Source: Actinomycetes bacterium
GTDB lineage: Bacteria > Actinomycetota > CALGFH01
NCBI GenBank assembly: GCA_036000965.1
Contig: DASYUT010000208.1
Location: forward strand, 1 to 50,577
Direction of reading: 5' to 3'
DNA: 50,577 nucleotides
Part shown: piece after piece, positions 27,112 to 38,935 of the stretch
How positions within the stretch are numbered: the first letter of the stretch is position 1
How the letters are laid out: the number at the start of each line of letters is the position of its first letter
Made by a program: the position numbers and the translations under genes
The notes under the pieces: generated by a model
What the model was told of the DNA's origin: nothing
Seen by the model: only the letters and a program-made list of their open reading frames with translations
Database searches by the model: none

Positions 27112-28523
27112 CCCTTGCCTGATCCTGCCTGATCCTGCGCGGTTGGTAGACGGCGGCCTGGCGGCGGTAGCGGGCCGACGTAGGTGGCCCGGGGCCGGAT
27201 CGGAGTGCCCCGCTCGTACTCCTCGAGTGCGTGGGCCAGCCAGCCGGCCGTCCGCGCGACGGCGAACACCGCCTCGCCGGCGCCCCGGGTCATCCCGGTC
27301 ACGTGGGCGAGCGCGGCCAGCGCGAAGTCGGCGTTCGGCGGCGGCAGCCGGCGGCGCCCCACCGCGGCGAGGACGGCCTCCACCACAGCGAGCCGGCCGG
27401 CCTCGCCCGCTTCGGGCGGCGTGGCGTGGCCCGCTTCGGGCGGCGCGGCGTGGCCCGCTTCGGGCGGCGCGGCCTCGCGCGCTTCCGGCAAGCCGGATGC
27501 GGGGGCCAGCGCACGGATCCGCTCGAACAGCAGGGCCGCGCGCGGGTCTCCGTGGGGGTACAAGGGGTGCCCGAGCCCGGGCACCCCTTCGCCCCGCCGC
27601 AGCCGGTCGCCGACCACCCGGGCCGCCTCGGCCGGCCCCTCGATCCCGGCCAGCATCGCCTCGACCGCGAGCGACGCGCCGCCGTGCTGGGCGCCGCTCA
27701 CGACCCCCAGGCCCGCGAGCACGACCGCGTACGGGTCGGCCCGTACCGACGCGGCCACCCTGGCCGCGAGCGTCGAGGCAGCGAGCTCGTGGTCGGCCAG
27801 GAGCACGAGCGCGGCATCGAGCACCTCCACCATGCCGGGGACCGGGTCCGACGGGCAGAGCCGCCGCCACAGCCGCGCCGCGACGCGCCCCTCCAGGCCC
27901 GGCTCGCGCGCGCCGACGGCCGCACCAGCCAGGGGAAGGGCGTGGACCAGCCCGGCCAGCAGCGCCTGGCCGGTCGTGACCACGGCGGCCGGGTGCAGCT
28001 CGAAGCGCAGCTCGTCGGTGGCGGCCAGCGCGGCCGCGACGACCCGGAGGCGGTCGAGGGGCAGGGTGCCCGAGGGGAGTCCCGCCTGGCACGCAGCTGC
28101 CACGGCCACCGCGCCGGGATCGGCCCGCCAGCCCGAGGCCGCAGCCCCCTCGAACCGGCTGGTCCACAACCAGGAGGCGACCTCCTCGAAGCTGTGCGAG
28201 CGGGCGAGGGCCAAGGCGTCGAGGCCCCGGTACCACAGCGTCCCGTGCTGGATCGCGGTGAGCGCCGACTCGACCACCACGGCGGGCGCCCCGTGAGGCT
28301 CGCGCCGTCGGCCCCGGCGGGCGAGCTGATCGACCTCGTCGGGGTCGAACGAGCTGGTCCGCCCGCCCGCCTCCCGCCTGCTGCGCAGCAGCCCGCGGCT
28401 GACGTAGGCGTAGAGCGTCTCGGGCTTGACTCCGAGCCGCGCCGCGGCCTCGGCGCTGGTCAGCCGGCGGGTCGCGGCCTCGGCGCTGGTCAGCCGGCGA
28501 GTCGCGGGCACCGCCTCGCTCAT
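27081..28523 (-). CDS. Si-type citrate synthase with N-terminal helix-turn-helix domain
   Basis: 480 residues. The C-terminal 400 form a citrate synthase fold: active-site His in GAQHGGASLAVEAM, second His in GLGHPLYPHGDPRA and catalytic Asp in PPPNADFALAALAH. The N-terminus (about 21-66) is a MerR/excisionase-like helix-turn-helix (TSAEAAARLGVKPETLYAYVSRGLL). This architecture is known in a subgroup of actinobacterial citrate synthases, where the DNA-binding role is unproven. The helix-turn-helix lead is tandemly duplicated (TRRLTSAEAA twice), and an APPEAGH repeat is inserted in the catalytic domain before the Asp motif. ATG 28523 has GGGAGG 5 bases upstream. It is divergent from the Re-citrate-synthase-like gene across a 101-base A/T-rich promoter gap. 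Confidence 0.9.
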   Translation of the reverse strand: MSEAVPATRRLTSAEAATRRLTSAEAAARLGVKPETLYAYVSRGLLRSRREAGGRTSSFDPDEVDQLARRGRRREPHGAPAVVVESALTAIQHGTLWYRGLDALALARSHSFEEVASWLWTSRFEGAAASGWRADPGAVAVAAACQAGLPSGTLPLDRLRVVAAALAATDELRFELHPAAVVTTGQALLAGLVHALPLAGAAVGAREPGLEGRVAARLWRRLCPSDPVPGMVEVLDAALVLLADHELAASTLAARVAASVRADPYAVVLAGLGVVSGAQHGGASLAVEAMLAGIEGPAEAARVVGDRLRRGEGVPGLGHPLYPHGDPRAALLFERIRALAPASGLPEAREAAPPEAGHAAPPEAGHATPPEAGEAGRLAVVEAVLAAVGRRRLPPPNADFALAALAHVTGMTRGAGEAVFAVARTAGWLAHALEEYERGTPIRPRATYVGPLPPPGRRLPTAQDQAGSGKGQEVLPWPPG

Positions 28524-28624: not shown

Positions 28625-29902
28625 ATGCCGCGTATCCACTTCCTCGACGTCACCAACCGCGACGGCGTCCAGACGGCGCGCGTCAACCTGTCGAAGTTCG
28701 GCAAGACGATGGTGAACTTCTACCTCGGCAAGCTCGGCGTGACCCAGTCCGAGCTGGGCTTCCCGGCCCTGTTCCACGAGGTGCCCTACATCAGGGCGAA
28801 CCTCGCCCTGGCGGAGGCGGGCGCGTTCGGCGGCCTGCGCCTGTCCGGGTGGGCCAGGGCCGTGCCCGAGGACGTCGATGCGGCCGCTCCGCTCGGCCTC
28901 AGGCACATGAACCTGTCGATCTCCACCTCGGACCAGATGATCGCCAACAAGTTCAAGGGCCGCCTGGACCGGGCCGCGGTCATCCGCGAGATGGTCAAGG
29001 CCACAGCGGCGGCCAAGGCGGCCGGGGTCGAGACTCTGGGCGTGAACGCCGAAGACGGCTCCCGAACCGACGACGGCTACCTGGCCGAGTTCGCCCACGC
29101 GGCCAGGGACGCCGGGGCCGACCGCATCCGCTACTGCGACACGATCGGGGGCGAGACCCCCGCCCACATCCGCGAGCGCTTCGCCCGCCTGGCCGCCGAC
29201 GTCGGCATCCCGGTCGAGACGCACTGCCACAACGACCTCGGCATGGCCGTGGCCAACTCGGTCTCCGGCGCGCTCGGCGACCTCGACGCCGGCCAGGACG
29301 CCTGGGTCAACACCTGCGTCAACGGCATCGGCGAGCGGGCCGGCAACGCCGACCTCCTCTCCTGCATCCTCGCCTTCCGGCACGGCTTCGGCCTGGCCTC
29401 GCGGGCTTCGGGCGAGGGGGCCTCGCGCGCCTCGGGCGAGGGGGCCGATCAGGCGGAGCTAGGCGACGGCCTCGACCTCGGCTGGGCGCGGCGGTTCGGC
29501 CTGTGGGCCAGCTACGCGTTCGGCCAGCCGCTGCCGATCGGGCAGCCGGGCGTGGGCCGCAACGCGTTCGCCCACGAGTCGGGGATCCACGCCGACGGCG
29601 CGCTCAAGGACCGCCACAACTACGAGCTGTACGACGACGAGACGCTCGGGCCGTTCCCCCACGACCACGCCCAGCGCGAGGGCCGGGTCGTGCTGACCGG
29701 CGAGTACGGCGGCCGGGCCGGGTTCCGGCACGTGATGGAAGCCCTCGGCGTCGAGGTGGCCGGCGACCACGAGGAGCTGGTGTTCAAGCTCGTGCAGCTC
29801 ACCAACGCGGCCACCGGCCGCCCCCTCACCGACGACGAGCTGCGCCTGCTCGCCGCCCATCCCGGGGAGCTGGCCCTGCTCTACCCCGGGTATCTGTCCT
29901 GA
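28625..29902 (+). CDS. Re-citrate synthase/homocitrate synthase-like DRE-TIM metallolyase
   Basis: 425 residues of the isopropylmalate/homocitrate synthase superfamily, condensing acetyl-CoA with an oxo-acid. The catalytic start is FLDVTNRDGVQTAR (Arg-Asp pair); metal ligands are ETHCHNDLG (HxH) and the Asn in GIGERAGNADL. From memory, the stretches HMNLSISTSDQMIANKFKG, GVNAEDGSRT, DRIRYCDTIG and PGVGRNAFAHESGIHADG match the Re-citrate synthase group of Clostridium kluyveri and delta-proteobacteria better than LeuA or NifV. An in-frame SRASGEGA duplication (about 260-276) is inserted in the middle. ATG has GGAG 8 bases upstream. Its divergent neighbour is a Si-type citrate synthase, which supports a citrate-forming role; homocitrate or citramalate remain alternatives. 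Confidence 0.85.
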   Translation: MPRIHFLDVTNRDGVQTARVNLSKFGKTMVNFYLGKLGVTQSELGFPALFHEVPYIRANLALAEAGAFGGLRLSGWARAVPEDVDAAAPLGLRHMNLSISTSDQMIANKFKGRLDRAAVIREMVKATAAAKAAGVETLGVNAEDGSRTDDGYLAEFAHAARDAGADRIRYCDTIGGETPAHIRERFARLAADVGIPVETHCHNDLGMAVANSVSGALGDLDAGQDAWVNTCVNGIGERAGNADLLSCILAFRHGFGLASRASGEGASRASGEGADQAELGDGLDLGWARRFGLWASYAFGQPLPIGQPGVGRNAFAHESGIHADGALKDRHNYELYDDETLGPFPHDHAQREGRVVLTGEYGGRAGFRHVMEALGVEVAGDHEELVFKLVQLTNAATGRPLTDDELRLLAAHPGELALLYPGYLS

Positions 29903-32402: not shown

Positions 32403-32737
32403 TCCAGTTGTCATCAGCGACCTGCTCGACCGCGGCCGGAGTCCGCTGACACCTGCAATCGCTGTGGGCGGCTCAGCCGCCTCATCGCGGTCTTGTTGTG
32501 TTCTGGCGCTGGGTGCTCAACCGAAGTTGACGGTCATTATCGGGACATTGGACCACGCCGGCGGCAAGCTCCGGGAACAGCTCCCGGGCCTTGGCGCACT
32601 CCAGTCCCTCAGCCACCGCTCACCCCGAGCGCCTCGCGGCGGAGCTTGGCAATCCCCCTCACCGATGCGGAATCCCGCGCGCGATCGCCGCCGTAGTACC
32701 AATGGAGCAAACGTCTTCGGTGATCCGGGGTCAAGAC
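32403..32737. other. Non-coding region upstream of the GNAT gene
   Basis: No supportable gene. It contains a hairpin CTCCGGGAACAGCTCCCGG (about 32568-32586). An in-frame ATG at 32702 could extend the GNAT protein by 12 residues. The region follows the IS5 fragment and may be debris of the same insertion. Confidence 0.4.
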
Positions 32738-33220
32738 ATGGAGATCAGACCGGTAAGGCGCGGCGAGGCGGCCGGCCTGCGGGAGCTGCGGCTTCGTGCG
32801 CTTGGTGATGCGCCGTACGCATATTTCGCGTCGCTGGAGAACGAGGAGAGCCTGCCGCTGTCGTACTGGGAGGACTGGGCGACGAGCGAGGACAAGGTCG
32901 TGCTCGTGGCCGTGGAGGACGGTGACTGGCTCGGCATGGCGGGCGCGTTCGTGCATCCGGACAAGAGCGACACAGTGAGTCTTTGGTGGCTGTGGGTCGC
33001 CCCAAACGCGCGCGGGCGGGGGCTCGCGCGACGGCTGGTGGTAGCGCGGGCTGACTGGGCGCGGGAACGGGGTGCCGTCCGGCTCGAGCTTGCGGTCGCC
33101 GAGAACAACAGGGCAGCCAAGGCGCTCTACCGGAGCCTCGGGTTCGTCCCGACGGGGGAACGCCGGTCAATGGCCTCCGACCCGACGCGTGTCGGGATAT
33201 TCATGGCCCGGCCGCTCTGA
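32738..33220 (+). CDS. GNAT-family N-acetyltransferase
   Basis: 160 residues. The fold runs MEIRPVRRGEAAGLRELRLRA, GMAGAFVHPD, LWWLWVAPNARGRGLARRLV (acetyl-CoA pyrophosphate loop with RGRGLA), then RLELAVAENNRAAKALYRSLGF (motif B) and the end strand. The acceptor substrate is unknown; the sequence resembles general RimI-like amine or protein acetylases. ATG 32738 matches the usual GNAT start (MEIRPV); ATG 32702 is possible. It converges on the P450 cluster, with a candidate terminator between. Confidence 0.88.
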   Translation: MEIRPVRRGEAAGLRELRLRALGDAPYAYFASLENEESLPLSYWEDWATSEDKVVLVAVEDGDWLGMAGAFVHPDKSDTVSLWWLWVAPNARGRGLARRLVVARADWARERGAVRLELAVAENNRAAKALYRSLGFVPTGERRSMASDPTRVGIFMARPL

Positions 33221-33225
33221 GACTC

Positions 33226-33277
33226 CACCGGCCAGCGGTACGGGTCATGGTCACGGTCCGGTCCTGTGTGGCCGGTG
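33226..33277. terminator. Inverted repeat between convergent GNAT and P450 genes
   Basis: CACCGGCCA (33226-33234) and TGGCCGGTG (33269-33277), perfect over 9 bp with a 34-nt loop that can itself fold (GGTCA/TGGTC-like). It lies just beyond both stop codons, fitting a bidirectional terminator. Confidence 0.45.
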
Positions 33278-33280
33278 CCG

Positions 33281-34741
33281 TCACCGCCCGTCAGCGACCA
33301 CGGGCAGGTGTTCGGCAGCTCCGGAATCCCGCTCCTGCGCTTCGAAATGGCGTTGGCACAAACGCTGCCGCCGTGCGTCCCACACCATGTACGTTCCGAG
33401 GATGAGCTGGACGACGCTGCGCACGAGGCCCTCCCATCTATCACGGAGCCAGATGTAGGCCAACGACGTTTGCGCAACGCCATGACGCACGGTTCGCGAC
33501 AGGCGATCAGGGCGGTCGTCTCGGCGTTGCGCAAACGTCGTTGGCGGCGCGAGGCAGGGACCGTGTGGTCCGTCCCGCGGCACAAGCAGGCACGGCCCGC
33601 GGTTCGGCATCGAGCGGGTGTGCGACGCCGACGAGTACAACACGAAGCGCCGCAGCGTCTCGCGCGCCGCAACGCGCATGGTGATCGGTGCCAGCCGCCA
33701 CGCCGGACACGGGCGGTTGGAGGCGACGCCGAACGGGATGTGGTTGGCATCCCGTGCGGAAAGCGTCTCCCACCGCGAGGGGTCGAAGCGGTCAGGGTCG
33801 TCGAAGCCCACGCGCTGGAACGCAGGGTAGTTGAAGCACAGCACCGAACCCGCCGGGAGGGTGACGCCATCGCTCGCGGCGATCTCCCCGGTCGTGATGC
33901 GGTGGGCGACCCCGAAGAGCGGGTAGAGGCGGAACGTCTCCTCGATGACCTGGTCAAGGTAGCGGTCGTCGCGCAAGGCCCGGGCCTGTGTCTCGGGGTG
34001 CTGTGCCAGGACCATGAGCAGGTGGGCCATGGCCTCGGACGTCTGCACGATCGCGGTGTTGAAGAATGTGCCCTGCAGGTAGAGGGCGCGCTCCCGGGTC
34101 GACAGGCCCGAGGGAAGCTCGTGGGGCAGGCCGCCGGCTTCGAGCCGGTCGATGAGAAACCGGGTCAGACGGTCCCGCCGGTCCATGTGCCGCAGCCCGC
34201 AGCTATTGAGCGCAGTCACGACGTCGTCGGCGTTGCCGACGATGAGCGCGCGTGCCTGGGGCGGGCATCGCTCCCCGAAGACGACCTCGTAGTAGAACTC
34301 GGCCCATACTGGCATCATGAGGTCGCGGAGCCGTACGAGCCGGGCACCGCGGATCCTGCCGAGCGCCTGAGCCGAGCATCGCGCCGCCAACGTCTCGGCT
34401 TCGGTGCGAGGCACGGCGAGGATGCGCCGGGTGGTGCGGGCGATCTCCTCGTAGCGGTCCCCCGGCTCGAGATGCTCCTGATGGATCTCGGCACCCGGTG
34501 ACAGCCAGTACCAGAACAGGTCCGACAGGCCGGCGCCCCGGCTGCGCCCGTTCGCCGCCGGGTGGGAGTAGACCTCCTTGAAGTGGTCGGCGTCGACGAG
34601 GTCGCCGGGGATGGGAATCCCCTCGTCGCCGTTGCTGTGGGCGAAGACGCGCATGCGCAGCGCGACGATCCCCTTCGGCAGCCACAATGGGAGGCTCGCC
34701 ATCAAGAGCATGCACGTGATCAGAACGAGCACCGCTGGCAC
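33281..34741 (-). CDS. Cytochrome P450, atypical active-site signature, extended C-terminus
   Basis: 486 residues. An N-terminal hydrophobic helix (about 3-27) suggests membrane association, unusual among bacterial P450s. The ExxR motif is EETFR (267-271). The heme loop PFGVASNRPCPAW has Cys345 but is one residue longer than FGxGxRxCxG and lacks the last Gly. Helix I (FFNTAIVQTSEAM, about 226-238) lacks the usual acid-Thr pair. Such changes recall P450s using peroxide substrates or acting as isomerases (CYP74/CYP8-like), but this is inference. Typical P450s would end near residue 393; here about 90 extra residues follow, beginning within a 23-bp inverted repeat. GTG 34741 has GGAGG 5 bases upstream and overlaps the hydroxy-acid oxidase gene by 22 bases. 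It is the last gene of the cluster. Confidence 0.85.
   Translation of the reverse strand: MPAVLVLITCMLLMASLPLWLPKGIVALRMRVFAHSNGDEGIPIPGDLVDADHFKEVYSHPAANGRSRGAGLSDLFWYWLSPGAEIHQEHLEPGDRYEEIARTTRRILAVPRTEAETLAARCSAQALGRIRGARLVRLRDLMMPVWAEFYYEVVFGERCPPQARALIVGNADDVVTALNSCGLRHMDRRDRLTRFLIDRLEAGGLPHELPSGLSTRERALYLQGTFFNTAIVQTSEAMAHLLMVLAQHPETQARALRDDRYLDQVIEETFRLYPLFGVAHRITTGEIAASDGVTLPAGSVLCFNYPAFQRVGFDDPDRFDPSRWETLSARDANHIPFGVASNRPCPAWRLAPITMRVAARETLRRFVLYSSASHTRSMPNRGPCLLVPRDGPHGPCLAPPTTFAQRRDDRPDRLSRTVRHGVAQTSLAYIWLRDRWEGLVRSVVQLILGTYMVWDARRQRLCQRHFEAQERDSGAAEHLPVVADGR
33459..33545. repeat. 23-bp perfect inverted repeat inside the P450 3' end
   Basis: Left arm 33459-33481 and right arm 33523-33545 are exact reverse complements (the core reads AACGACGTTTGCGCAACGCC on the left) around a 41-base centre. 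It lies in the codons for residues 400-428 of the P450, after the point where P450s usually end. It could be a tiny mobile-element end pair, an invertible segment or a large hairpin. Confidence 0.85.
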
Positions 34742-35763
34742 GGCTTCCTCCAGATGAGATCGGGGCTCACGTCGCGCGGCGAGCGGCAGCCGCACAGGGC
34801 CAGAGCAAGGTCGAACTCGGTACGGAGCATGTCCAGCACCCGCGCGATGCCGTCTTCGCCGTCCACCGCGAGCCCCCAGAGGATGGGACGCCCGATCGCG
34901 ACGGCGTCCGCGCCGAGCGCCAAGGCCTTGAGGACATCGGTGCCGCGTCGGACCCCGCCGTCGAGCAGCAGCGGAACGGCCCCTACGACGGCGTCGGCGA
35001 CCTGTGGCAGCAGCTCGATCGTGGCCGGCACGGTGTCGAGCTGGCGTCCGCCGTGGTTCGAGACGGCGAGCGCGTCGATGCCGCGGTCAACCGCGAGCCG
35101 CGCGTCCTGCGGGTGGACGACGCCCTTGAGCACGATCGGCAGCGCGGTGACCGACCGCAGCCAGTCGATGTGGTCCCACGACAGATCGGACCGGAAGGCG
35201 ATGGACCGTCCGTCCATGTGGGCGCAGGCCATCCCGGGTGGCAGATCGAGGAAGCCGTTGCGCAGGTCCCGCTCGCGGCGGCCGAACACCGGCGAGTCCA
35301 CGGACACCACCAACGCCGCGCAGCCCACCGCCTCGGCACGCCGGACGAGACGCTCGGTGAAGCCGAGGTCGGGCTGGACGTAGAGCTGGAACCACAGGTC
35401 GGCGCCGGTCTCGACGAGCTCCTCGATCGCGACCGTCGACGCCATGCTGACGACCATGATCACGCCGGCCTTCGCCGCGGCCCGCGCGGTTGCCAGCTCA
35501 CCGCCGGGATGGGCGAGCCGGTGGAACGCGGTCGGCGCGACGATGACGGGCAGGGCTGCGCGGCGGCCCAGCAGGGTGACACCCAGTTCCCGTGTCCGGC
35601 TGCCGCGCAGCACGCGTGGCACCAGGCCGATCTGGGCGAATGCAGCCTCGTTCGCCCGCACCGTGACCTCGTCCCCAGCGCCGCCCGCGAAAAAGTCGTA
35701 GACGGCGGGGTCGAGGCGGCGGCGCGCCTCCTCCTCGATCTCCCGCAACGAAAGGGATTCCAT
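34720..35763 (-). CDS. FMN-dependent alpha-hydroxy-acid oxidase/dehydrogenase
   Basis: 347 residues of the glycolate oxidase/lactate oxidase/mandelate dehydrogenase family, oxidising a 2-hydroxy acid to the 2-oxo acid with FMN. The catalytic centre VSNHGGRQLD contains the base His237 and Arg240; FMN-binding Lys213 is in VLKGV, the phosphate loop in LLDGGVRRGTDV and IGRP, and FQLYVQ carries the active-site Tyr. ATG 35763 starts 5 bases after the flavoprotein stop, giving MESLSLREIEEEARRRL, a normal N-terminus. The gene order (transporter, flavoprotein, this, P450) suggests it oxidises an intermediate of the same pathway, though the substrate is unknown. It is distinct from mycofactocin MftD by context, as no mft genes are present. 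Confidence 0.92.
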   Translation of the reverse strand: MESLSLREIEEEARRRLDPAVYDFFAGGAGDEVTVRANEAAFAQIGLVPRVLRGSRTRELGVTLLGRRAALPVIVAPTAFHRLAHPGGELATARAAAKAGVIMVVSMASTVAIEELVETGADLWFQLYVQPDLGFTERLVRRAEAVGCAALVVSVDSPVFGRRERDLRNGFLDLPPGMACAHMDGRSIAFRSDLSWDHIDWLRSVTALPIVLKGVVHPQDARLAVDRGIDALAVSNHGGRQLDTVPATIELLPQVADAVVGAVPLLLDGGVRRGTDVLKALALGADAVAIGRPILWGLAVDGEDGIARVLDMLRTEFDLALALCGCRSPRDVSPDLIWRKPCQRCSF

Positions 35764-35768
35764 GGCAC

Positions 35769-37310
35769 TCAGGCAGGGACCCGGCCCATCTCGCGGGCGA
35801 GGAAGGCTTGCAGCGGTTCCCGGTGCACGGTCTCGTCGGTCCACTCGTTCTCGAGGTTCTCCGTCACGTGGTGCTCCGCGACGAATTCCCCGAGCCGGTA
35901 AGCCCGGACGATCGGGTGCAGGTAGCGGCCCTTCGCCGCGAGCTCCGCATCGGACTGGGCGATGCGGCCCACCGAGATGTCGAACGGGTCGAACCGGTCG
36001 TGATCGGGGCCGTATTCCAGCGTGACCGTGACGTAGTTGCCGGTGTAGTTGGCCAGCACGTAGTCAACGGGCAGCTCCTCGTAGTGGCGTGCGGTCCTGT
36101 CCGGGTCGAGCGTGACCAGGTCGCAGAGGAAGCCGAACTGCTGCCACAGGGCCGAGGTCCGGTTGACCCGGGTGATCACGGCGTCCGCCAGCGCCCGTGG
36201 CTCGGCGGGGAGGCACCGATGGGGCCACTCCACCCCGTCGTACTTGCATTCCAGCATGCGGTGCAGAGCCCGGATCCCGTAACGGAAGCCGTGGATGAAC
36301 CCGCCTGTCGACCGCTTGAAGTCGCGGACCTGCATGAGCGTCCCGGCGAAGTAGAGCCCTGGGACGTTGACCGACTCCCACTCGGGCGTCTGCGCGGGAA
36401 AGCGGTCATCGATGACCAGCTCGGGACGGCAGGCCGGATCGAAGATCGAAGGATCGAACCGGAAGCCTGTGCACACGATCACCCGGTCGTAGGGGATGTC
36501 CTTGGTGACCTCGTTCGCCCGCGCGAAGCTCACGGTGACCAGATAGGAGCCGTCCCGGCGTTCGATGCGCTGGATCGTCCCGTCGAGGAGCGCGTTCTGC
36601 GACTTGAGCTGATAGGTATCGAGCAGGTTGTTGTTGACCGCGCGCAGATGCCCCACGTAGTGGGTCCGCCACGCCATCCGGATGGACTCCGGGCCCGCGA
36701 CGTGGATCACTGCCGCCGTCTCGATCAGGTTGTCCGCGGTCTCGAACCCGGAATTGCCCTTGCCGATGACCAGCACCCGCTGGTCCACGAAGTCACCGGG
36801 ATCCACCGAGACGGTGCCGTACTGCTCCGCGGTCTCGATACCGGGGATCGGTGGAACGTACGGCGCCGAGAATCCGGTCGCCACGACCAACCGCCTCGCT
36901 GCATAGGCCCGTCCGTTCTCGTCGGTCACGCGGAAGGCCCCGTCCTCGCGGTTGACGCGGACGACCCGGGTGCCGTAGCGGACGCGCAGGCGGAAAGCGC
37001 CGGCGAAATCGGCCAGATACCGCACCATGTCGTCGGCGTCGGGGAGGTAGCGGCCGGTGTAGCGGGTGAAGAGCAGGTGCGGGTCGTCAGACAGCAGCGA
37101 ATTCCAGTCCATGCGCAGGTTGAGCCCGGGGTCGTCCCAGCCGGTGTGCGGCTTGTTGATCGAGATCAGACGCCGGTGCCGCGGGAACCTGCTGAAGAAC
37201 GTTCCTGGCGCCCGCCCGGCCTCAAGGATCAGGTAGTCGCGTCCTGCTCGCTCCAGGAAGTACCCGAGCTGCAGCCCCGCTGGACCCGCGCCGATCACCA
37301 GATAGTCCAT
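35769..37310 (-). CDS. FAD-dependent oxidoreductase, FOXRED2-like flavin monooxygenase
   Basis: 513 residues with two nucleotide-binding folds: FAD motif DYLVIGAGPAGLQLGYFLE at the start and NADPH motif VLVIGKGNSGFETADN near 165-180. From memory the sequence follows human FOXRED2/ERFAD and its bacterial relatives closely: PGTFFSRFPRHRRLISINK, LRMDWNSLLSDDPHLLF, HYVGHLRAVNNNLLDTYQLK and STGGFIHGFRYGIRALHRML. FOXRED2 is an ER flavoprotein; the bacterial function is not defined, but a monooxygenase-like or other NAD(P)H-using redox role fits. ATG 37310 is preceded by GGAGGA at 7 bases. The same frame is open through the MFS gene upstream with no stop, so a fusion protein is also possible. It ends 5 bases before the hydroxy-acid oxidase start. 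Confidence 0.85.
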   Translation of the reverse strand: MDYLVIGAGPAGLQLGYFLERAGRDYLILEAGRAPGTFFSRFPRHRRLISINKPHTGWDDPGLNLRMDWNSLLSDDPHLLFTRYTGRYLPDADDMVRYLADFAGAFRLRVRYGTRVVRVNREDGAFRVTDENGRAYAARRLVVATGFSAPYVPPIPGIETAEQYGTVSVDPGDFVDQRVLVIGKGNSGFETADNLIETAAVIHVAGPESIRMAWRTHYVGHLRAVNNNLLDTYQLKSQNALLDGTIQRIERRDGSYLVTVSFARANEVTKDIPYDRVIVCTGFRFDPSIFDPACRPELVIDDRFPAQTPEWESVNVPGLYFAGTLMQVRDFKRSTGGFIHGFRYGIRALHRMLECKYDGVEWPHRCLPAEPRALADAVITRVNRTSALWQQFGFLCDLVTLDPDRTARHYEELPVDYVLANYTGNYVTVTLEYGPDHDRFDPFDISVGRIAQSDAELAAKGRYLHPIVRAYRLGEFVAEHHVTENLENEWTDETVHREPLQAFLAREMGRVPA

Positions 37311-38935
37311 GGGTCTTCCTCCAGACATGGTACGAGCGGTGTCCCGCGACGCACGAGCGGCCAGCTCAATCGCGGTGATCTCCTCCAGCCGCCGACGGCG
37401 GGTCTCGACCCCGTAGCGGGCGACTGCCGAGGCGGCGAGCGCGGTCGGGATGGCACCGAGCACCGCGGCTCCGGTCAGGCTGGGTGGGGCCAGCCCGATC
37501 ACGACGACGCTCACGCCCAGCAGCCCGCCCGCGCGAGCGCAGGCTCCCGCCAGGCCGGTCCCCCGGGCTCGGACGCGTGTCGGGTACACCTCCGAGCTGT
37601 ACGGCGTCAGCACGGCGAGGATGGAGTTTGTGCCCACCAGCAGGAGCACGATGAGCGCCTGGAGCACGTATGGGTGGTCTCCCACCCGCCGCCCCAGCGC
37701 AACGAAGGCGAGGAGCGTGGCCGAGGTGAGCAGGGCGACGCCGATCATCGTCCGCCTGCTGCTCCAGAAGCCATACAGCAACGCCACCGCGAACACGGCG
37801 GGGAACCCGATGATGGCGGCGCCGGCGAGCAGGCGCTCGGACGCGCCGGTCTCCAGTCCCAGCTGGCGCAGGTTGGTGGGCAGCCACAGCAGGAACCTGC
37901 TGTTCACCAGGCCCCAGGCGAGGCCGAAGAGCGCGACCGCGGTCGTCAGACCGCCGAACGGCCTTCGGAGAAGCTGCGCGTACCGGCCCGGCTCCTCCTC
38001 GGAGCGAGGCGCCGGATCCTCACGCACGAGGCGGGCGCCGAAGCGCGCCATCACCGCCTCCGCCTCGGCGGTGCGGCCGGAGGCGAGCAGGAACCGGGGC
38101 GACTCGGGAATCCAACGGTTGAGCAGGATGAGGAGCACGCCCGTCGGCAGCCCGATCAGCCAGAGGACACGCCAGCCGAACCGCGGCTCCAGCGTGGAGG
38201 CAAGGAGGCTCGTGACGACGTACGCCCCCGCCACGTCGCCACCGATCAGCACCATCAGCCAGCTGCGGTGCCGGGCGGGGATGATCTCGGCCAGCAGGGC
38301 GAACGCGATGGGCAGCATCCCGCCGACCGCCGCGCCCATGAGGAAGCACATGAACAGGTTCCAGCCGAACGCGGGCATCGCGCCGCAGATGGACGTGGCG
38401 ATGAACATGACGCCGGCGAGCAGGATCGACGCCCGCCTGCCGATGCGGTCACCCAGCCAGCCCCATCCGGCGGAGCCGAGCACCATTCCGACGAGCGCGC
38501 ACAGCGGCAACAAGGCCACGGGCACCTGACCCTGCGGGTTCAGCGGCGACTTCAGGCCGTACTCCTGGGCCATGCCGGGCACCACGAACGCCAGCGTGGT
38601 CGGCTTCATGACGTCGATGGTCACGGCGACGGCCATGACGGCGAGGAGCGCCAGGTGGGCGCGCCGGATCGGGGCATCGTCCAACGCGGCCACCCGCACC
38701 CCGGCGACCCGATCCGGACAGGCCCGGCGCCCCGCGCCACCAGTCCATACCCCGACAACGCGATGCCCACGACGATGAGGCCCATGCCCGCCTTCATCGA
38801 GGGATCCATCGGCATCCCGGCCAGCTGATAGCCCATGCCACGTGCACCGACGTACATGGGGAGATGCAGGACCACACCCGCGCTCACCGCGGCGATTCCG
38901 AACCAGAACGCTCGGCGATGAGCGAAAGCGATCAT
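37311..38935 (-). CDS. MFS transporter, interrupted by a -1 frameshift and running into the flavoprotein frame
   Basis: Sugar-porter/aromatic-acid type major facilitator. The normal N-terminus (MIAFAHRRAFWFGIAAVSAG, then HLPMYVGARGMGYQLAGMPMD) begins at ATG 38935 in one frame. From about 38,720-38,700 the protein continues (VRVAALDDAPIRRAHLALL) in the frame one base back, so a 1-base deletion, a sequencing error or a programmed shift is needed. The rest has 10-11 helices with GDRIGRRASILLAG (MFS loop 2-3) and PESPRFLLASGR (sugar-porter type). No stop codon separates its end (TRRRRLEEITAIELAARA) from the flavoprotein start. It is the likely importer or exporter for the oxidative cluster. Confidence 0.7.

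Follow-up and report, generated by a model that had tools for sequence, protein, structure and literature searches.

A FOXRED2-like flavoprotein, a 2-hydroxy-acid oxidase and an atypical cytochrome P450 form the core of a probable specialised-metabolite cluster in actinobacteria

We analysed a four-gene oxidative operon in a 50,577-nucleotide stretch of DNA from an Actinomycetes bacterium (assembly GCA_036000965.1, contig DASYUT010000208.1; this whole stretch is called the window). The genes lie on the minus strand from 38935 to 33281 and encode, in order of transcription, a major facilitator superfamily (MFS) transporter, a FOXRED2/ERFAD-like flavoprotein (FOX), a flavin mononucleotide (FMN)-dependent 2-hydroxy-acid oxidase (HAO) and a cytochrome P450. 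They probably represent a reduced form of a specialised-metabolite cluster that is conserved in many soil actinobacteria and built on an invariant core, FOX-HAO-P450.

Scanning genomes with FOX recovered 67 loci, 68 once G001, a relative from the family of the window, was added. FOX, HAO and P450 follow one another in this order on a single strand in 60 of these 68 loci, from about 16 genera and at least four orders, a count in which close relatives are over-represented because the scan was seeded with FOX peptides. The ordered trio spans Streptosporangiales, Micromonosporales, Kitasatosporales and Pseudonocardiales in addition to the window's own order, and of the eight exceptions four are Nonomuraea loci that lack HAO, two lie at contig ends, one is a fragment and one comes from a gammaproteobacterium. 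The original prediction, which held that the genes act together and proposed a neighbourhood search with the flavoprotein as bait, is thus borne out: the order is not unique to this genome, and the homologues of FOX, HAO and P450 do not lie in unrelated operons. FOX identity is 61-73% across the actinobacterial loci and 90% against G001. In an even sample of 397 genomes across the phylum, those with a close FOX protein (E < 1e-130) and those with a member of this P450 family (E < 1e-25) are exactly the same five, and the trio is adjacent in all three of those outside the window's family, two of which belong to one genus, which limits their independence. Taken together, the 60 ordered loci and the co-occurrence in five of 397 genomes are well above chance. 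Since HAO-like proteins are common (54 of the 397 genomes at E below 1e-80), HAO was recruited from a broad family. The sole good match among plasmid records was a chromosome-sized record of Nonomuraea gerenzanensis without annotated features, and no description of this cluster was found in the literature searched, in a library of incomplete coverage.

The proposal of a four-gene unit has to be modified, because only FOX-HAO-P450 is constant whereas the fourth gene is an interchangeable transporter, either a CPA2 antiporter or an MFS protein, and because the cluster usually comprises more genes. In its full form it also includes an acyl-CoA ligase and a two-component system, and one type has a tyrosine ammonia-lyase (TAL)-like lyase and a second FOX as well; the window has none of these, so that this genome holds only part of the cluster. 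Across the loci the linked genes were ligase (59), lyase (38), second FOX (33), CPA2 antiporter (46), MFS (13) and response regulator (49), as called by a simple GC3 rule and tblastn, by which small or unusual genes such as a precursor peptide could be missed. Type I clusters (Nonomuraea, Herbidospora, Planobispora and some Actinomadura) contain a sulfotransferase-domain gene, ligase, FOX, HAO, P450, CPA2 antiporter, response regulator and kinase. Type II clusters (Micromonosporaceae and Streptomyces) contain lyase, FOX-A, HAO, P450 and CPA2 or MFS, plus the ligase and mostly also a second flavoprotein, FOX-B. Type III clusters (Actinoallomurus and Actinomadura sp. OS1-43) consist of FOX, HAO, P450, DUF6282 and a two-component system, with MFS in Actinoallomurus only; the DUF6282 protein lies inside or next to the operon at L027, L047 and L055 (Actinoallomurus and one Actinomadura). 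The window and G001 share MFS-FOX-HAO-P450 and group in the FOX tree with the single-FOX cluster types, but G001 has a sulfotransferase gene and a ligase downstream and the window lacks both. The second FOX accompanies the lyase in 32 of the 38 lyase-bearing loci, and a contig ends near the cluster in two of the remaining six. Judging from its motifs, the lyase is tyrosine ammonia-lyase-like, since the Ala-Ser-Gly of the 4-methylideneimidazole-5-one (MIO) cofactor and the His89-Leu90 pair of tyrosine ammonia-lyase are found in 38 of 38 loci with a readable motif.

Given this gene content, the transporter, the regulator and the patchy distribution, specialised metabolism is a better fit than catabolism. 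In a catabolic or detoxification operon, an aromatic-acid-type MFS protein would import a compound, FOX, HAO and P450 would degrade it and the ligase would serve as the CoA entry step. Such a role would agree with the best matches of the MFS protein, which are aromatic acid/H+ symporters, with the frequency of ligases and HAO in catabolism, and with a two-component control consistent with substrate sensing. We nevertheless consider it unlikely, as the recurrent genes include none recognised as serving ring cleavage or beta-oxidation, most relatives (46 loci) carry the CPA2 antiporter instead of MFS, a TAL-like lyase would yield a phenolic acid from tyrosine, which is an odd starting point for degradation, and the occurrence is rare and patchy (5 of 397 genomes).

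The features of the operon in the window are as follows.

38705..38935, minus strand: N-terminal part of the MFS transporter, the first 77 codons with two predicted transmembrane segments, ATG at 38935 preceded by AGGGGG; not in frame with the remainder, and a single frame in G001 (L111), L027, L055 and L064.
37329..38699, minus strand: bulk of the MFS transporter, similar to aromatic-acid/H+ symporters (Pfam MFS_1 1.3e-26, Sugar_tr 6.7e-24; best NCBIfam model TIGR00895 3.6e-34, under its cutoff).
35769..37310, minus strand: FOX, a FOXRED2/ERFAD-like flavoprotein of 513 residues using flavin adenine dinucleotide (FAD) and NADPH (Pyr_redox_3 3.9e-52), with its own ATG and GGAGG and no stop between MFS and FOX.
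34720..35763, minus strand: HAO, FMN-dependent 2-hydroxy-acid oxidase (FMN_dh 3.1e-126).
33281..34741, minus strand: P450, membrane-anchored, with a C-terminal helical extension (p450 3.5e-16), an invariant Val-Gln in place of the I-helix acid-Thr pair and the Cys loop FGxxxNRxCPA.
33459..33545, no strand: hairpin insert within the P450 gene, arms 33459-33487 and 33517-33545.
32553..33280, no strand: junction with a GNAT gene (32591-33220, plus strand); the same place in G001 holds the sulfotransferase-domain gene and the acyl-CoA ligase.

The tight unidirectional arrangement that had been predicted for the four genes was confirmed. MFS and FOX lie in one open reading frame (ORF) without a stop (39014-35769), a junction that is also stop-less in G001; the FOX stop codon TGA (35769-35771) is followed after a 5-base gap by the HAO ATG at 35763, and the HAO end (34720) and the P450 GTG start (34741) produce a 22-base overlap. 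Shine-Dalgarno-like sites back the starts of MFS, FOX and P450, that of P450 being GGAGGA, and the ATG of FOX (37310) with its GGAGG site is present in both the window and G001. From this layout it is possible that a fused MFS-FOX chain is made alongside free FOX. Elsewhere on the contig, in-frame short tandem repeats with units of 24-30 bp lie within apparent metabolic genes (27394-27489, 28443-28507 and 29395-29446).

The first gene had been read as one frame, whereas in this assembly MFS is broken once near 38,700, with codons 1-77 (38935-38705) and the remainder (38699 on) in different frames. Because the frame is single and unbroken in G001 (contig C341, overlapping C747), Actinoallomurus and Streptomyces, we attribute the break either to an assembly error or to recent mutation. 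It comes down to a length difference of one base in a G-rich run of a draft assembly, and differences of this kind are a common error of such assemblies. It is possible, although the less probable outcome, that the window copy is a dead remnant that makes nothing in this organism, a view compatible with specialised metabolism for the cluster as a whole. The remnant reading is favoured by the loss of the ligase block, the lack of any lyase or ligase orthologue in an assembly that is 99% complete, the frame break in MFS and the hairpin insert in P450; on the other hand, FOX, HAO and P450 are open, and their dN/dS (ratio of nonsynonymous to synonymous substitution rates) of 0.23-0.25 between the window and G001 argues that they are retained under purifying selection, the P450 insert is in frame between the core and the C-terminal helix, and the MFS change may be an assembly error.

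Several observations weigh against the assignment to specialised metabolism, at least for the local copy. The recurrent cluster genes include no recognisable polyketide synthase, nonribosomal peptide synthetase or terpene core. HAO is not always needed, since the four Nonomuraea loci without it (L016, L017, L018 and L019) retain FOX and P450, together with the ligase, CPA2 and the two-component system. The closest lyase and ligase homologues in the window genome are only ~39% and ~32% identical, and are therefore not orthologues of the cluster genes. Given the ligase loss, the broken MFS frame and the P450 insert, and with no close lyase or ligase, the window copy may be in early decay.

The flavoprotein assignment of the original prediction held. 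According to its AlphaFold2 model (pLDDT 83), whose best fold matches are flavin-containing monooxygenases (FMO) and YpdA, FOX has an FMO-type FAD/NADPH fold with a long extra C-terminal domain. The Rossmann motifs for FAD (GxGxxG, G7-G12) and NADPH (GxGxxS, G183-S187) are invariant or nearly so in 30 sequences, and conserved residues extend to position 503 of 513. FOX shares these motifs, and the fold over ~365 alignment columns, with YpdA and the Group B flavin monooxygenases (FMO, ArsO, DiatB and SsDesB), but differs from them by ~150 extra C-terminal residues and by an invariant Tyr about where the FMO fingerprint has His. Indeed, the classical fingerprint FxGxxxHxxxY/W of FMO and Baeyer-Villiger monooxygenases was not found, the window FOX having PGIETAEQYGTVS with Tyr164 invariant, and FOX scores below every NCBIfam cutoff. 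FOX is presumed to be related to FOXRED2/ERFAD, as the original prediction proposed. The endoplasmic reticulum signal peptide of animal ERFAD members is missing, as expected for a bacterial cytosolic relative, and the chain starts directly at the FAD motif. A role for FOX in thiol-disulfide reduction, as in YpdA or thioredoxin reductase, in place of oxygenation is very improbable: YpdA (Bdr) is indeed among the best folds and NCBIfam matches, but the family has no conserved CxxC, its two frequent cysteines being 14 residues apart and replaced by Ala in about a fifth of members, and the cluster contains no recognised gene of a thiol pathway. This role was rejected for lack of the CxxC. Two more distant FOX relatives were also seen. 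A gammaproteobacterial one (45%; L068:6022-9587) lies beside two Pfam-less ORFs, one of them perhaps heme-oxygenase-like, and near an amine oxidase, possibly in a different pathway context; a stand-alone third paralogue (46%; L104:6653-8185 in G204) lies outside the cluster.

HAO is a glycolate-oxidase-type enzyme, as had been supposed. It matches the PF01070 profile, its nearest single-domain PDB relatives are glycolate/hydroxyacid oxidases, and it is nearer to oxidases than to dehydrogenases of its family. The catalytic residues Lys230, Asp157, His254, Arg257 and Tyr129 are each retained in 57-61 of 61 sequences, so that the FMN fold and the catalytic Lys/Asp/His/Arg set are shared with 4-hydroxymandelate oxidase and glycolate oxidase. 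Ala occupies the position of Trp108 in 57 of 61, including the window, which should open the pocket and suit bulky hydroxy acids. In contrast to the 4-hydroxymandelate and glycolate oxidase systems, the window has Phe at catalytic position 24, where 40 of 62 sequences have Tyr, and no hydroxymandelate synthase or HpgT was recognised in the clusters. Phe also stands at this position in 1gyl, a spinach structure that the alignments show to differ from 1gox there. Membership of MftD (mycofactocin) was rejected, as HAO scored 251.8 bits with TIGR03966 (cutoff 470.85); with this cutoff missed and no Mft genes seen, a mycofactocin-like ribosomally synthesised and post-translationally modified peptide was rejected as well.

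The P450 has the ExxR motif (E258/R261) and the heme-ligand C335, both invariant, together with an N-terminal anchor, C-terminal helices and the FGxxxNRxCPA loop. The view of it as membrane-anchored and catalytically odd is upheld, because the classical I-helix acid-Thr pair is missing from all 27 aligned sequences, where an invariant Val222-Gln223 falls opposite CYP3A4 E308-T309 when the CYP3A4 alignment is extended by a few residues. The acid-Thr pair is not required of all P450s. It is conceivable, but quite unlikely, that HAO supplies peroxide to a P450 acting as a peroxygenase, the two forming a self-contained pair without ferredoxin partners, as a mechanistic variant of the specialised-metabolite scheme. 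The missing acid-Thr pair, an OleT structure among the top fold matches of the P450 model, the closeness of HAO to oxidases and the lack of a recognised redox-partner gene among the recurrent genes would agree with it, as would weak matches of nine of the 27 P450s to the CYP152 peroxygenase model (NCBIfam CypC; best E 2.1e-5). These matches are far under the cutoff, however, the CYP152 I-helix Arg-Pro was not found in the alignment, and the four Nonomuraea clusters have the P450 without HAO; CYP152 membership was rejected on the first two grounds. The hairpin insert, with 29-nt arms that are 93% complementary, is in frame, absent from 26 aligned relatives and located where model confidence is lowest. 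It is present as a single copy in the genome and was therefore rejected as a repeated element.

From gene order, conservation, folds, active-site residues and losses, we infer a scheme of substrate, step order, product and export. It is plausible, judging from the sequences, that the cluster oxidises an aromatic or hydrophobic acid, and the earlier suggestion that it makes or degrades a small hydrophobic molecule is likewise plausible. In the relatives, the starting acid would be made from tyrosine by the TAL-like lyase and/or activated by the acyl-CoA ligase, and in the window organism it would be supplied from elsewhere. FOX, with NADPH, FAD and O2, would hydroxylate (or halogenate) the acid; HAO would oxidise an intermediate, a bulky 2-hydroxy acid, giving the 2-keto acid and H2O2; and the membrane-anchored P450 would tailor the product without the usual acid-Thr proton relay, perhaps with peroxide. 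The product would then be exported via the adjacent MFS or CPA2 transporter.

Some relatives resemble bagremycin/ferroverdin and other bacterial TAL-CoA-ligase clusters in combining a tyrosine ammonia-lyase-like enzyme with acid activation, but the cutoff of the BagA/FevW model was missed (236 vs 1000), and clusters of that type are not known to contain FOX, HAO or a P450 of this kind. Another parallel for FOX comes from animals. The enzyme ERFAD/FOXRED2 is reported to be essential in animals and to have no characterised reaction; its one active relative, the ERFAD-family protein OroF of sponges, has unexpectedly been proven to be an NADPH/FAD brominase and belongs to a different biosynthetic cluster (PMC12833800). 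As in our cluster, a FOXRED2/ERFAD-family flavoprotein is there part of a small-molecule pathway that also includes a CoA ligase and P450s, and the family has been duplicated in the producing sponges, just as most clusters with a lyase have a second FOX; the oro bundle differs in being animal, in its secretory signal and in serving a pyrrole-imidazole alkaloid pathway, and the source text consulted mentions no HAO or lyase (PMC12833800). By analogy, we hypothesise that FOX may act like OroF. The wider proposal, that bacterial FOXRED2-like proteins are flavin halogenases or oxygenases of the same new mechanistic class as OroF and that lyase clusters use two of them on tyrosine-derived phenolic acids, is distinctly doubtful.

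The conserved cluster, with one or two FOX proteins, defined partners and an unusual P450 in culturable bacteria, makes ERFAD chemistry directly testable, and it suggests that Nonomuraea, Micromonospora and Streptomyces make a metabolite not yet described. If FOX does belong to the class of OroF, these clusters would specify a new family of halogenated/hydroxylated actinobacterial metabolites and provide the first tractable bacterial model of ERFAD chemistry.

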